Shown one piece after another: positions 18,979 to 24,328 of a stretch of 64,000 nt of DNA (position 1 is its first letter; the number at the start of each line of letters is the position of its first letter). The notes below the pieces were generated by a model. The model made no database searches and had not been told where the DNA came from. It saw only the letters and a program-made list of their open reading frames with translations. A program made the translations under genes and the position numbers. Source of the stretch: Sphingobium faniae (lineage in GTDB: Bacteria; Pseudomonadota; Alphaproteobacteria; Sphingomonadales; Sphingomonadaceae); assembly GCA_900100475.1 (NCBI GenBank), contig FMTU01000004.1, forward strand, positions 317,501 through 381,500. The letters are read 5' to 3'.

Positions 18979-19674
18979 TCAGGCTGTCAGGACATCCCGT
19001 TCTTCCTCCAGCCGCCCTTCATGCAGCCGCACGACCCGGTCCATCTTCTCCGCCAGCCGCTCATTATGCGTGGCGACCAGCGCTGCCGATCCTTCCTCCC
19101 GCACCAGCCGCAGGAATTCGGCCAGCACCACATCGGCGGTGCGCTCGTCCAGATTGCCGGTCGGTTCGTCCGCCAGCACCAGGGCAGGCCGGTTCGCCAA
19201 AGCCCGCGCCACCGCCACCCGCTGCTGCTCGCCGCCCGAAAGCTGGCTCGGCCGATGTTCCAGCCGGTGTCCCAGCCCCAGCGATGTCAGCAGCGATTCG
19301 GCCCGCGCCCGCGCCGCGTCCATCTCCACGTCGCGGATCACTTGCGGCAGGATCACATTCTCCGCCGCGTTGAAGTCGGGCAGCAGATGGTGGAACTGAT
19401 AGACGAAACCCAACGCATCGCGCCGCAGCCGCGTCCGCCCGTCATTGTCCAGCCTCGCCGCTTCCTCGCCACCGATGCGGATGGAGCCATCGAACCCGCC
19501 CTCCAGCAGACCGACCGCCTGCAACAGCGTCGACTTGCCCGATCCCGAAGGCCCCAGCAGCGCCACGATCTCTCCTTGCCCGACGTTCAGATCCACGCCG
19601 CGCAGCACTTCGATGGTGACGCCGCCCTGCGTGAAGCTGCGCGTCAGCCCGGCGACTTTCAGAACGTCATTCAT
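18979..19674 (-). CDS. lolD: Lipoprotein-releasing ABC transporter ATPase LolD
   Basis: A 231-residue ABC ATPase that powers release of lipoproteins from the inner membrane to LolA. Walker A is [11 protein letters not shown], the Q-loop [12 protein letters not shown] is specific to the LolD branch, the signature is LSGGEQQR and Walker B is [12 protein letters not shown], followed by [11 protein letters not shown]. The start is ATG 19674. The open frame runs 20 codons further but without homology. It overlaps the permease gene by 8 nt, so both are translated from one mRNA led by the permease. Confidence 0.93.
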
Positions 19675-20917
19675 AGCGCAGCACCTGCACGGGATCGGTA
19701 TTGGCGGCCTTGAACGCAGGATAAAGCGTCGCAAGGAAACTGAAGATGAGCGCCATCAGGCAGATGATCGTGATCTCCACCGGATCGGGCTTGGAGGGCA
19801 ATTCGGTGAGGAAGCGAATCGAAGGGTCCCACAGATTCTGCCCCGTCATGAACTGGATCGCGTTGACCAGGCTTTGCCGGAAAAACAGGAAGGTGAAGCC
19901 CAGCACCATGCCCGCCGCCATGCCCAGCGTGCCGATGGTGACGCCCACCGTCATGAAGATTTTCACCAGCCCGCCCCGGCTCGCCCCCATGGTCCGCAAT
20001 ATCGCGATGTCCCGCGTCTTCGCGCGCACCAGCATGATCAGCGAGGACAGGATGTTGAACACCGCCACCAGCACGATGATCGACAGCACCACGAACATCG
20101 CCACCCGCTCGACCGCCAACGCCTCGAACAGGGACGCGTTCATCTGCCGCCAGTCGGTGATGACCGCGCGACCCGCGACCTTGGCCGCCAGTGGCTCCAG
20201 GATCGTGCCCACCTTGTCGGGGTTCACTGTCTCCACCTCGATCATGCCGACCACGTCGCCCAGCAGCAACAGCGTCTGCGCGTCCTCGATCGGCATGACC
20301 ACGAAGGCCTTGTCATAGTCATAAACCCCGACCTCGAAGATCGCGGCGACCTGATAGGAAACCTGTCGGGGCACGGTGCCGAAAGGCGTGGACCGGCCGG
20401 CCGGGTTGATGATGGTGATGCTGTCGCCTTTCTGGATGCCCAGATTTTCCGCCAGCCGCGACCCGATCGCTACCTTGTCGCTGCCGGCGGTCAGGTCGTT
20501 AAGGCTTCCCGCCAGGACCTTGCCCTTGAGCGTCGCATTATTGCGGATGTCGGGCACGGTCATGCCGCGCACCAGCACCGCCTCCACCCGCCCCTGAAAG
20601 GTCGACAGCAGCGGCTGTTCGATCAGCGGCGTGGCGTTGGTGACGCCCGGCGTCTCTCTCGCCTGCTTCAATATGCTCTGCCAGTCCGGCAGTCGCCCGC
20701 CATAGCCCTGCACGACCGCATGGCCGTTCAGCCCGACGATCTTGTCGAACAGTTCCGCGCGGAAGCCGTTCATGACGCTCATCACGATGATGAGCGCGGC
20801 GACTCCCAGCATCACGGCGGCCAGGCTGATCCCGGCGACAAGGAAGATGAACCCCTCCCCCTTGCCGGGCAGCAGATAACGCTTGGCGATCATGCGTTCG
20901 TAACGGGATAATATCAT
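19667..20917 (-). CDS. lolC: Lipoprotein-releasing ABC transporter permease (LolC/LolE family)
   Basis: A 416-residue four-helix permease: helix 1 near residues 25-47, a large periplasmic domain (50-270) and three C-terminal helices in the FtsX/MacB-like domain. The N-terminus ([21 protein letters not shown]) and the [25 protein letters not shown] segment are typical of LolC/E. Alphaproteobacteria often have a single permease (LolF-like) forming a homodimer with LolD. With only one such gene here, that is a reasonable alternative name. It is the first gene of the operon with lolD and is preceded by a consensus-like promoter at 20958-20984. Confidence 0.9.
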
Positions 20918-20957
20918 GATGGCGCGAACGGCCTCTTGGAAATGGCTATGTCTGTTC

Positions 20958-20984
20958 GTCTAGCAGGCTATGGGCAGACGGCAA
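20958..20984 (-). promoter_or_regulatory. lolC-lolD promoter
   Basis: Minus-strand TTGCCGT (20978-20984), 12 nt, GCTAGACG (20958-20965) fits the Caulobacter housekeeping pattern TTGACGS-N10-14-GCTANAWC. The inferred start near 20951 gives a leader of about 34 nt before the lolC ATG at 20917. Confidence 0.5.
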
Positions 20985-21052
20985 GCATCCTGGCATTGTT
21001 GCAGCGCGGCCACAGGGCGCAACATAAAATCACTGCGGTGCAGAAATAGGCC

Positions 21053-21079
21053 GTGACAGGTCCGTCCAAGCGCCATAGC
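21053..21079 (+). promoter_or_regulatory. Candidate promoter of the small RNA
   Basis: GTGACAG (21053-21059), 12 nt, GCCATAGC (21072-21079) resembles TTGACGS-N12-GCTANAWC on the plus strand. The inferred start is near 21086. A second possibility is TTGCAG (20999-21004) with CATAAA (21023-21028) about 50 nt upstream. Confidence 0.35.
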
Positions 21080-21085
21080 AAAGCA

Positions 21086-21237
21086 ATCGAAGCACAGGTA
21101 AAAAGGCCGTGGTTCAGGGATACTGCTTCCCGTTTTCGAGCTTAGGGGGCTGAGAAAACAGGTTGAGGCAGACCAAGGGGGAGACGAGAAATCGTCCATC
21201 AGTGCCCGGATCGCGGAAACGCGATCCGGGCACTTTT
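21086..21237 (+). ncRNA. Candidate structured small RNA between lolC and hsp20
   Basis: No open frame on the plus strand fits this stretch, yet it ends in a textbook terminator and folds well by eye. A long hairpin pairs 21123-21137 with 21154-21171 (CTGCTTC/GAGGCAG, CC/GG, GTTTTC/GAAAAC, with small bulges), enclosed by TGGT/ACCA (21110-21113/21172-21175) and capped by AGC/GCT. A second hairpin is GACGA-GAAA-TCGTC (21183-21196), and the terminator hairpin follows at 21201. Two tandem GAAA tetraloops are notable. It is not at the usual 6S (zapA/fau) locus and does not show SRP, RNase P or tmRNA core motifs. The identity is unknown. The 5' end is inferred from a candidate promoter. Confidence 0.5.
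21201..21237 (+). terminator. Strong rho-independent terminator
   Basis: A perfect 14-bp stem GTGCCCGGATCGCG (21202-21215) / CGCGATCCGGGCAC (21220-21233) with a GAAA tetraloop, extended by A21201-T21234 and followed by TTTT. The U-tract lies only on the plus-strand side, so it ends a rightward transcript although no gene lies upstream on that strand. Confidence 0.85.
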
Positions 21238-21267
21238 GCTATAGCGCTATGCCGTCCTCCTCCTCCT

Positions 21268-21295
21268 CTTGAAACCCCGCCTTGCCGAACCATAT
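21268..21295 (+). promoter_or_regulatory. RpoH (sigma-32) type promoter of hsp20
   Basis: CTTGAAA (21268-21274) and CCATAT (21290-21295), with 18 nt between CTTG and CCATAT, match the heat-shock promoter pattern of alphaproteobacteria (CTTG, 17-18 nt, CYTATNT). The inferred start near 21303 gives a leader of about 90 nt. Confidence 0.55.
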
Positions 21296-21302
21296 CGCTC
21301 CT

Positions 21303-21393
21303 GTCCGGCCGCCATCAGGGGCCGGGCGCAGTATCGCCGGATGCCATGTTCCGGGTCCGGCATGTTCATTTTGCTCTTTGGGAGATGATGACA
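21303..21393 (+). promoter_or_regulatory. ROSE-like RNA thermometer in the hsp20 leader
   Basis: Three successive hairpins: CCGGCC (21305-21310)/GGCCGG (21320-21325), GCCGGA (21336-21341)/TCCGGC (21356-21361), and a 3' hairpin in which CATTTTGCTC (21366-21375) pairs with GAGATGATG (21382-21390). The last covers the Shine-Dalgarno GGGAG (21380-21384) and contains the TTGCT motif with a bulged G and a U-U mismatch, the hallmark of ROSE elements, which melt on heating to expose the ribosome site. The assignment is by eye from motif and position. Confidence 0.6.
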
Positions 21394-21858
21394 ATGCGTG
21401 GTTTCGACCTTACCCCCTATCGCCGCTCGACCGTCGGCTTCGATCGTCTGTTCGACCTCATCGAAAACAATGCCCGGTTGCAGCAGGGCGACAATTACCC
21501 GCCCTTCAACATCGAACGCCTTTCCGAAGACCGTTATCGCGTGACGCTCGCCGTCGCCGGCTTCCGTTCCGACGAACTGGAAATCACCGCGCAGCAGAAC
21601 CTGCTCCAGGTGTCCGGCCGCAAGGAGGAAACGCAGGCGACCGACCGCGCCAAGTTCGTCCATGTCGGCATCGCCAACCGCAGCTTCGAGCGCCGCTTCG
21701 AACTCGCCGATTTCGTGCGGGTGGAAAAAGCGGACCTTGCCGATGGCCTGTTGATCATCGAACTAGTCCGCGAAATCCCCGAAGCCATGAAGCCCAAGAA
21801 GATCGCCATCAACGGCGGTCAGCTCGTGGAAATCGGCAAGGATCGCGACGCCGCCTGA
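21394..21858 (+). CDS. Hsp20 family small heat-shock protein
   Basis: A 154-residue alpha-crystallin-type holdase chaperone that binds unfolding proteins during heat stress. The N-terminus FDLTPYRRSTVGFDRLFDLIE is typical of the IbpA-like class in proteobacteria, the alpha-crystallin domain spans about residues 35-125 (NYPPFNIERLSEDRYRVTL, VSGRKEE, FERRFELADFVRV), and the tail carries KKIAINGG. Three in-frame ATGs lie at 21385, 21388 and 21394. Only 21394 has proper spacing (9 nt) from GGGAG. Expression is likely double-controlled by an RpoH promoter and a ROSE-like leader, and ends at the terminator at 21881. Confidence 0.92.
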   Translation: MRGFDLTPYRRSTVGFDRLFDLIENNARLQQGDNYPPFNIERLSEDRYRVTLAVAGFRSDELEITAQQNLLQVSGRKEETQATDRAKFVHVGIANRSFERRFELADFVRVEKADLADGLLIIELVREIPEAMKPKKIAINGGQLVEIGKDRDAA

Positions 21859-21880
21859 CCGGCATTCGATAGACATCATG

Positions 21881-21910
21881 GGGCGCGGCCATATCGGTCG
21901 CGCCCTTTTT
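21881..21910 (+). terminator. hsp20 rho-independent terminator
   Basis: GGGCGCGGCC (21881-21890), loop ATATC, GGTCGCGCCC (21896-21905), with one G-U pair in a 10-bp stem, followed by TTTTT. Located 22 nt after the hsp20 stop. Confidence 0.85.
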
Positions 21911-21937
21911 CATGAACGGGATGCGAAAGCCGGTGGG

Positions 21938-24328
21938 CTATCCCCGCAATGTCCCGCCCAGCTTTTCCGCCGCCTTCACCACCGCGCCGCTGATCGCGTC
22001 CAGTTCCTCTTGCGAGAAGCTCTTTTCGCCCGGTTGCAACGTTACTTCGATGGCGAGGGATTTACATCCCTGCTCCACGCCCGGCCCGGCGAAGACATCG
22101 AACAGCCGCGCCTCGACAATGGCCTTCTTGTCCGCGTTCCGCACCGCGCGGACGAGCGTGTCGGCCTCCATCGCTTCGGGCACGAGGAAGGCGAAGTCCC
22201 GCTTCACCGCCTGCAAGGCGGGCGGCGCATAAGGCGCGCGCATGAAGCCGGTCCTGCGCTTCGCCGGGATGGCATCGAGGAAGATTTCACCCGCGACCAC
22301 CGCGCCGGTCAGGCCGAACTGCCTGGCAAGGCCCGGATGCAGCACGCCATATTCGGCCAGCACCGTCTTGGGGCCAAGCCGCAACGTCCCCGACTGGCCG
22401 GGATGATAGGCGCCCGACGCCTCGCCGAAGTTTTGCAGATTCGCAACCGGCGCGCCCGCCGCGGCGAGCAGGGCGGTGACTTCGGCCTTCGCGTCATGCG
22501 CGGCGAAAGGCTGCGCCTTGCCGCTCTGCCAGCCGCGCGGCGTCTTCTCGCCCGCCAGCACGAAGCCGACTGTGGCGCGCTCCCAACTCCCCTCTTTCTG
22601 GCCGGCGAAATAACGCCGCCCCAGTTCGAACAGCCGCACCGAAGCCGCGCCGCGATCCATGTTGCGCCGCGTGGCCGACAGCAGCCCCGGCAGCAGCGAG
22701 GGCCGCATCACCTTCAGATCCTCGGAAATGGGATTGGCGAGCGTCCAGTCGCCCCCGCCCACGCTCGCGGCCTCCTTTTCGGAGAGAAAGGACCAGTTGA
22801 TCGCCTCGGCCAGCCCCCGCGCGGCGGCGGTGCGGCGCACCCGGCGCTCGACCATCTGCTCGGCCGTCGCGGTCGGCCGCGCCACGCCCGGCGCGCGGGG
22901 CAGCGGCGTCGAAGGAACCTTGTCCAGCCCCACGATCCGCACGACTTCTTCGACGATGTCGGGCCAGCCGTCCACGTCGCGCCGCCATGTCGGCACGGTG
23001 ATCGTCCACGCGCCCGCGTCTCCGGCCACGCCGAAGCCCAGGCTTGCGAGAATGCGTTTCTGTTCGTCCGCCGCGACCTCCACGCCCGCCAGCGCAAGGC
23101 ATTGCGCCGGATCGTAGCGCAGCGTCCGGGGCGCGAGCGGAGGCTCGCCCGCGCGGGTCGGCTCGCTCGGCGTGCCACCGCACAGCTTCACCACCAGATC
23201 GGTCGCGATGGACAGGCCATCGTCCAGAAACGCCGGGTCCACCCCCCGCTCGAACCGCCCGCGAGCATCTGAGGTCAGTTGAAGCTTCTGCCCGGTGATG
23301 GCGATCCGCTCCGGCGTGAACCAGGCGCATTCGATCAGCACGTCGGTCGTGGCATCGGTGGCGCCCGAATGTTCGCCGCCCATGATGCCGCCAATATCAT
23401 GCACCGCCGCATCGTCGGCGATGACGGTCATCGTCTCATCGACGGCATAGGTCTTGCCGTTGAGCGCCAGCACCTCTTCGCCGGACCGGCCCTTGCGCGC
23501 GACAAGGCCGCCCTTCAACGCCGCCATGTCATAGACGTGCAGGGGGCGGCCGAGGTCGATCATGAGATAATTGGTGATGTCGACCAGCGTGCTGATCGGC
23601 TTCTGCCCGATGGCCTTCAACCGCCGCGCCATCCATTCGGGCGACTGGCCGTTGGTGACGCCCCGGACGGTCCGCGCGAAGAAAGCGGGGCATCCCTGCA
23701 TGTCATCCGTCCGCACATCCGGCCCCGGTCCGGTCCCCTCGATCACCGGAATGGCGAGCGGCTTCAATGTTCCCAGTCCCGCCGCCGCCAGATCGCGCGC
23801 GATCCCGCGAACGCCCATGCAATCCTGCCGGTTGGGCGTGATGCTGACGTCGATGACCGGATCGTCGAGGCCCGCCCACGCCGCATAGACCTGCCCCACC
23901 GGCGCGTCTTCGGCCAGTTCGATGATGCCGTCATGATCCTCGCCCAGTTCCAGTTCGCGGGCGGAGCACATCATGCCGTTGGATTCGACGCCGCGGATGG
24001 CGGTCTTCTTCAGCACCATGCCGTTGGCCGGCACCACCGCGCCTTCCGTGCCGAACACGCCGACGAGGCCCGCCCGCGCATTGGGCGCGCCGCAGACCAC
24101 CTGCAAGGGCTGTCCGTCGCCGGGGTCCACGGTCAGCACCTGCAACTTGTCCGCCTGCGGATGACGCTCGGCGGTCAGCACCCTGGCGATGCGGAACGCG
24201 GCCAGCTTCTCCGCCGGATTCTCCACATCCTCCACCTCAAGGCCGATGTCGTTGAGCGTCTTGAGGATGGTGGCAAGATCGGCATCGGTATCCAGATGAT
24301 CCTTGAGCCAGCTCAGGGTGAACTTCAT
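21938..24328 (-). CDS. pheT: Phenylalanine--tRNA ligase beta subunit
   Basis: A 796-residue subunit of the (alpha-beta)2 enzyme charging tRNA-Phe. Domain order is standard: N-terminal [18 protein letters not shown], the EMAP-like tRNA-binding domain (about 40-150, with [20 protein letters not shown]), the B3/B4 editing domain (about 210-390, [20 protein letters not shown]-like), B5 (400-475), the catalytic-like domain (490-690) and the C-terminal ferredoxin-fold anticodon-binding domain ([19 protein letters not shown]-like to the end). The ATG at 24328 overlaps the pheS stop by 4 nt. An upstream in-frame extension lies inside pheS and is rejected. Confidence 0.96.

Follow-up and report, generated by a model that had tools for sequence, protein, structure and literature searches.

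To our knowledge, few small RNAs (sRNAs) have been characterised in the sphingomonad group. The closest described systems include the Zms sRNAs of Zymomonas mobilis, which come from the same bacterial family as the RNA presented here, and SuhB of Sphingopyxis granuli TFA, a sphingomonad sRNA that the available part of its report describes as a 61-nt, Hfq-dependent regulator (PMC6563040). The RNA presented here is likewise from a sphingomonad, is predicted to be ~150 nt long against the 61 nt of SuhB, and lies in a 64,000-nucleotide stretch of Sphingobium faniae DNA (hereafter the window, meaning the whole stretch that was analysed). Neither in the window nor in 20 homologue loci does any family of Rfam 15 reach its curated cut-off, which for the window includes the suhB model. 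A homologue of the RNA occurs in two Zymomonas-like genomes and may already be known under a Zms name; no coordinate match was found between the homologue's place and the Z. mobilis ZM4 sRNAs of Table 2 in PMC6970203. 6S RNA (RF00013) is also a structured RNA of similar length, but the RNA here has no RF00013 match and a different fold, and the genome's 6S RNA was found on another contig (C90, 50.3 bits); identity with 6S was therefore rejected. An earlier prediction made from this DNA (hereafter the original prediction) had recognised no known core RNA motif at the site, and the Rfam searches and the separate 6S gene agree with it.

When the Rfam threshold was made lax, the sole match to the RNA around the site was to ncS01, a Burkholderia sRNA (RF02865), which covers H3 and the terminator at a chance-level 21.4 bits against a cut-off of 58; in homologue loci L101 and L102, several unrelated families gave weak matches. 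A prior description was not found in the open-access papers searched, including the available parts of PMC6563040, PMC6970203, PMC7064620, PMC7566282 and PMC8632094, and PMC2864571 holds none of the relevant terms. On sequence evidence, the RNA forms a new family, without a match in Rfam 15, of a kind already known: the small non-coding RNAs.

We propose that the locus is probably a stand-alone gene for an sRNA of ~150 nt, that it has its own intrinsic terminator and a promoter of the housekeeping type, and that it founds a family in the Sphingomonadaceae; that it encodes a conserved stand-alone non-coding RNA is, in our judgement, very probable. Comparison among homologues supports the four hairpins, with many compensatory changes in H2 and H4, and identifies the strand; it also shows that the promoter recurs, that the terminator stem is retained, that the RNA occurs once and at a constant place, and that two blocks hardly vary. 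The 155-nt stretch 21086-21240 (plus strand) lies between lolC, on the minus strand, and hsp20, on the plus strand. Its predicted fold contains four hairpins (H1-H4) and has an energy of -72.1 kcal/mol, compared with -47.25 +/- 3.86 for 200 shuffles (z -6.44), none of which was as good. The features of the locus are:

19667..20917, minus strand: lolC, the divergent neighbour, outside the RNA (MacB_PCD and FtsX Pfam domains)
21053..21058, plus strand: -35 element GTGACA of the predicted sRNA promoter, conserved in homologue loci
21076..21081, plus strand: -10 element TAGCAA, at a spacer of 17 from the -35 element, placed by aligned columns; predicted start at about 21088
21088..21238, plus strand: predicted sRNA transcript, ~150 nt, ends approximate (promoter, terminator, conservation block with a sharp 3' edge, covariance-model matches)
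21089..21115, plus strand: H1, 5' hairpin GAA.CAC.GG / CC.GUG.UUC (fold and homologue pairing)
21105..21120, plus strand: near-invariant block GGCCGUGGUUCAGGGA, the 3' arm of H1 plus AGGGA (alignments; columns conserved in 50 or more of the 51 rows)
21118..21174, plus strand: H2, long bulged hairpin with a G-rich apical loop, main stem 21123-21171 (fold and covariation)
21175..21182, plus strand: linker AAGGGGGA, mostly unpaired and without variation among the genus rows (identity and unpaired probability)
21183..21196, plus strand: H3, hairpin GACGA-GAAA-UCGUC (fold and homologue pairing)
21201..21238, plus strand: H4, intrinsic terminator with a 15-bp stem, GAAA loop and short U-run (terminator scan and covariation)

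The original prediction rested on a 14-bp GAAA-loop terminator on the plus strand, with no gene ahead of it. A strong terminator is present at 21201-21234, with 15 pairs and a GAAA loop followed by TTTGCTATAG (TTTGC), and the preceding gene, lolC, is a minus-strand gene with its start at 20917. The long bulged hairpin predicted at 21123-21171 reappears in the fold as the main stem of H2, and the second predicted GAAA hairpin as H3 (21183-21196); H1 (21089-21115) is an additional 5' hairpin that the prediction did not contain. The linker, 21175-21182, is unpaired in the predicted fold of the window sequence.

DNA searches found homologues in 88 of 94 genomes of the same genus (E<=0.001), and in only 12 of 298 genomes of a family sample. 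Two covariance models were built, R1 from 23 sequences (alignment A1) and R2 from 51 sequences (alignment A3, comprising 53 loci less L046 and L085). R1 matches 115 of the 298 family genomes (E<=0.01) and 91 of 296 genomes in an order sample, all of the latter in Sphingomonadaceae. At E<=0.001, R2 matches 193 of the 298 family genomes, of which a hand count puts 100 at or above 40 bits and 93 at or above 45 bits; under strict filters the other 105 have no match at this threshold. In a class sample, 20 of 337 genomes match R2 at E<=0.01, with a best score outside the family of 31.5 bits; the matches outside the family (<=31.5 bits) were rejected as noise, the flanks of L242-L247 being without lolC or proS by tblastn. 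Low-scoring matches within the family are doubtful where L117 (42.4 bits), L240 (36.5), L120 (32.9) and L241 (32.4) are concerned, these having neither lolC nor proS in their 1-1.5 kb flanks; L116 (52.6 bits) and L119 (39.6) have lolC or proS in theirs.

Eighteen family genomes without an R2 match were examined, and all 18 carry lolC; upstream of it, 15 are without a match and three have weak matches only (29.7, 26.3 and 20.6 bits), at the expected place and orientation. From these genomes and the R2 counts we conclude that the RNA is widespread in Sphingomonadaceae and, as judged by model matches, strongly diverged or lost in some lineages. Weak syntenic matches at L307:1897-2007, L296:3182-3347 and L303:1987-2121, upstream of proS or lolC, look like shrunken versions, and L307 has lost most of the middle hairpin and of the G-tract.

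A core-pattern scan of named genomes yielded at least 119 loci, among which 115 match R2, 110 of them at more than 60 bits; the four pattern loci without an R2 match belong to Streptomyces, a gammaproteobacterium, a Deltaproteobacteria MAG and a Mycobacterium MAG. The loci L174 (Proteobacteria bacterium, 112.3 bits) and L239 (Bacillus sp. 2B10, 91.5 bits) hold the full RNA beside lolC, and because lolC adjoins the RNA, both are probably sphingomonad DNA under other names. Some loci share one genome (for example, L071 and L141), so locus counts are not counts of independent genomes. This genome has a single copy of the RNA; the match that ranks next, by DNA or by model, is the antisense of the palindromic terminator.

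Pairing is well conserved in A3, an alignment made to the model's own structure and thus leaning towards it: 90.4% of cells are paired, compared with 79.3% in shuffled and 30.5-45.1% in slid controls. Changes on both sides occur in 35 of 49 pairs (272 cells, 51 homologues; shuffled mean 20.4, slid controls 9-16), or in 30 of 49 when the shifted row L080 is left out (a count for which the shuffles were not rerun), and the covariation score is 0.336 (shuffled 0.172; slid 0.046-0.073). Unconstrained folds of single sequences give the same broad layout in most of those listed, with exceptions such as L023 and L075. H2 (helices 3-8) varies in length and sequence with its pairing retained, showing both-side changes in 17 of 18 pairs and 76-85% of cells paired; the corresponding values are 11 of 15 pairs and 95.9% for H4, and 2 of 9 pairs and 98.2% (51 homologues) for H1. 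H3 is nearly invariant (99.6% of cells paired), and its five both-side pairs come from L080, in which the stem is shifted by one base. As these changes stem from L080 alone, H3 is supported by invariance and not by covariation, apart from L102, which has a true H3 change (GACGC/GCGUC). The compensatory changes expected if the predicted stems were real are found, the 21123-21171 hairpin included, and together with the lack of an Rfam match at cut-off they favour the reading of the original prediction, namely, an undescribed structured sphingomonad sRNA with its own terminator.

Could the terminator instead have arisen by chance in intergenic DNA, with no sRNA at all? Such sites do occur, as shuffles of 20000-22500 contain a mean of 1.9 against three in the actual sequence, where the other two have 11 and 5 pairs; yet wide conservation and covariation make the probability of a chance terminator close to negligible. 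The U-run is short (1-5 U in the last 6 model columns of the 51 homologues) and nearly absent in the distant homologues L020 and L015-L017, which retain the terminator stem; given this near-disappearance in L015, L016, L017 and L020, the hairpin may serve stability, or termination may need a factor.

Conservation is uneven along the RNA. Over 31 genus rows, including the window, identity to the window is 0.92 in H1, 0.98 in GGGAU, 0.85 in H2, 1.00 in the linker, 0.94 in H3, 0.81 in the spacer and 0.85 in H4, and outside the RNA it is 0.64 upstream and 0.29 downstream. The most conserved parts run from the 3' arm of H1 into NGGGA and from the GGGGG linker into H3, and across homologues the near-invariant blocks are GGCCGUGGUUCNGGGA and the GGGGG ahead of H3. 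The identity of 1.00 at the linker extends over 21174-21182 in the 31 genus rows, and GGGGG is present in 51 of 51 rows of A3. The linker has a mean unpaired probability of 0.73 (above 0.5 in 90% of 49 homologues), and the GGGA segment an intermediate one of 0.52. By eye, a conserved CCC in the 5' arm of H2 (21116-21132 and homologues) could instead pair with the upstream GGGA or with the linker GGGGG, an alternative that suggests two conformations.

The strand can be read from the pairs themselves: G-U pairs number 154 and A-C pairs 4 (H1, H3 and H4), and the plus strand is the more stable in 51 of 51 homologues, indicating that the RNA is read from the plus strand. A minus-strand functional element that forms a long leader for lolC or proS would suit the constant divergent position (in 37 of 40 loci, lolC starts 132-205 nt away from the RNA), but it is extremely improbable given this asymmetry, with the U-run and the promoter also on the plus strand.

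Upstream of the RNA, an element consisting of RTGACA, 17 nt and TAGC recurs among homologues. TGAC and TA motifs 15-24 nt apart stand upstream in 73 of 83 loci (two-core regular expression), compared with 7.0% of shuffled stretches, and the spacing is mostly constant (21 in 62 and 22 in 9 of the 73). From the 50 loci L051-L100, a truncated locus (L068) was left out of the promoter, neighbour and identity counts and of single-sequence folding, leaving 49; in these 49 homologue loci, an A follows the TG(A/G)C anchor of the -35 element in 42, and the aligned columns of the -10 element have T in 43, A in 42, G in 39 and C in 39. The predicted promoter fits the sigma-A model of Z. mobilis, which the available part of PMC7566282 gives as -35 TTGNNN, a spacer of 17, -10 TANNNN without T-7, and a discriminator of 6. 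A scan with E. coli rules did not report the sRNA promoter of the original prediction, which had described a promoter-like element with a start near 21086; the recurrence among homologues speaks for such an element, and the spacer of 17 with a discriminator of 6 puts the predicted start near 21088. As far as sequence can tell, the sRNA has the promoter of its own that a stand-alone gene calls for.

Neighbouring genes were counted with tblastn at 137 loci, of which R1 searches supplied 49, the pattern scan 80 and retrieval by place 8; in many of them the flanks were limited to 1-1.5 kb. Divergently upstream, lolC or proS is present in 132 of the 137 loci (lolC in 115/137, proS in 30/137), or in 132 of 135 when the unrelated pattern hits are set aside; the five without them comprise two unrelated pattern hits (L130 and L189), two loci cut at the locus edge (L166 and L178), and L075, which has proS downstream. 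Downstream, both gene and strand vary among the homologue loci, and many have a minus-strand ORF next. Two 2.1 Mb genomes with loci of 45-46% GC, which we take for Zymomonas, have the homologue between proS-like and pyrG-like genes (a class-II tRNA synthetase gene, and a minus-strand glutamine amidotransferase gene next). Downstream on the same strand, hsp20 is found in 47/137 loci, and within 400 nt in 26/137; a riboswitch or mRNA leader was rejected, because no same-strand downstream gene is constant. In the window, hsp20 and its control elements are:

21268..21295, plus strand: CTTGAAA-N15-CCATAT, read by eye, which we take to be an RpoH-like promoter of hsp20, a separate unit
21305..21400, plus strand: ROSE-like leader of hsp20, a separate unit; its RF00435 score of 32.2 bits falls short of the cut-off (45), and it is probably a sphingomonad ROSE element (RNA thermometer) that has diverged
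21394..21858, plus strand: hsp20, a separate unit (PF00011, 61.9 bits)

These elements bear on whether the RNA might be a cis-acting leader or attenuator of hsp20, whose terminator would control read-through into the heat-shock gene. Here, hsp20 is on the same strand and within 160 bases of the terminator, a closeness to which the 26 loci above add, but it has its own RpoH-like promoter and ROSE-like leader; elsewhere it is farther away or not found, the next ORF is often on the minus strand, and in the Zymomonas-like genomes the minus-strand pyrG-like gene follows. We consider such a leader very unlikely. The stress role that the original prediction derived from the hsp20 neighbour likewise finds no support, since hsp20 is seldom close downstream and has its own promoter and leader.

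We also considered whether the RNA is an mRNA for a small peptide, or has a dual function, with translation from the GUG in GCCGUGGUUC. An ORF of at least 10 codons runs from the GUG column in 33 of 51 homologues, but the GUG is within a near-invariant hairpin, the frame is not conserved past four codons (by eye), the differences in RNA length are not divisible by three, and both Zymomonas-like versions are without the GUG, all of which make a coding function highly improbable. By ORF count and by eye, there is no conserved coding frame among the homologues.

What the RNA does can be approached through its conserved parts. The mostly unpaired linker and the GGGA segment, intermediate in exposure, look like a contact site, likely for RNA or protein, in the predicted folds. 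Two Sm/Hfq domains are found in one chain in the Hfq of this genome (PF17209, 195.8 bits, two stretches; L314:1477-1953, G000:C34:144972-145400), so its ring may differ from the usual homohexamer; a search of open-access papers yielded nothing relevant on a tandem Hfq in Novosphingobium. For CsrA, the genome has no PF02599 match, and a CsrA-titrating RNA was rejected accordingly. The tandem-domain Hfq and the missing CsrA match make Hfq-aided base pairing the leading guess and protein binding its main rival, base pairing through the G-rich linker having, in our estimate, somewhat less than an even chance. The predicted sRNA would then be a trans-acting regulator, in which H1 and the terminator would protect the RNA ends and H2 would act as a scaffold of variable length; the exposed GGGGG linker, together with AGGGA and the loop of H2, would pair with C-rich sites in target mRNAs or sRNAs, probably assisted by the tandem-domain Hfq. 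One 9-mer of the linker complement, CTCCCCCTT, shows no enrichment: the genome has 47 sites for it, including the antisense of the RNA itself, and 46 for the reversed control, so this count supports no target.

A housekeeping non-coding RNA that binds polymerase, ribosome or an RNA-binding protein would account for the same conservation differently, the near-invariant GGUUCNGGGA and GGGGG being contacts; it would be 6S-like in principle, with a different fold. The housekeeping-type promoter, the single copy here and near-invariant blocks larger than a usual seed agree with it, as does the invariance of GGGGG over all 51 rows, by which the linker is not simply a Shine-Dalgarno copy. Set against these points are that no protein partner is known, that 6S is separately present and that CsrA was not found in the genome, and we regard a protein-binding RNA as rather unlikely. 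More doubtful is a family-wide housekeeping RNA of a new functional type, which would act without seed pairing as a structured decoy or scaffold. Its conserved G-tracts (GGUUCNGGGA and GGGGG) would bind a core protein, the 30S ribosome or other C-rich RNAs, and the C-rich 5' arm of H2 might pair alternatively with these tracts.

Whichever the function, the RNA is conserved in a large family of bacteria from soil, water and plants and is present once in this genome; since it has no matching entry in Rfam 15, it would escape pipelines that depend on Rfam. A new Rfam family could be seeded with alignments A1 and A3, and the mostly unpaired, conserved G-tract offers a testable handle on post-transcriptional control in sphingomonads.

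Like trans-encoded bacterial sRNAs, the RNA is intergenic and has a predicted promoter of its own, an intrinsic terminator and hairpins with exposed segments, in a genome that encodes Hfq; it differs from them in having no known target, in its G-rich exposed motif, and in its strong sequence conservation over much of the family.
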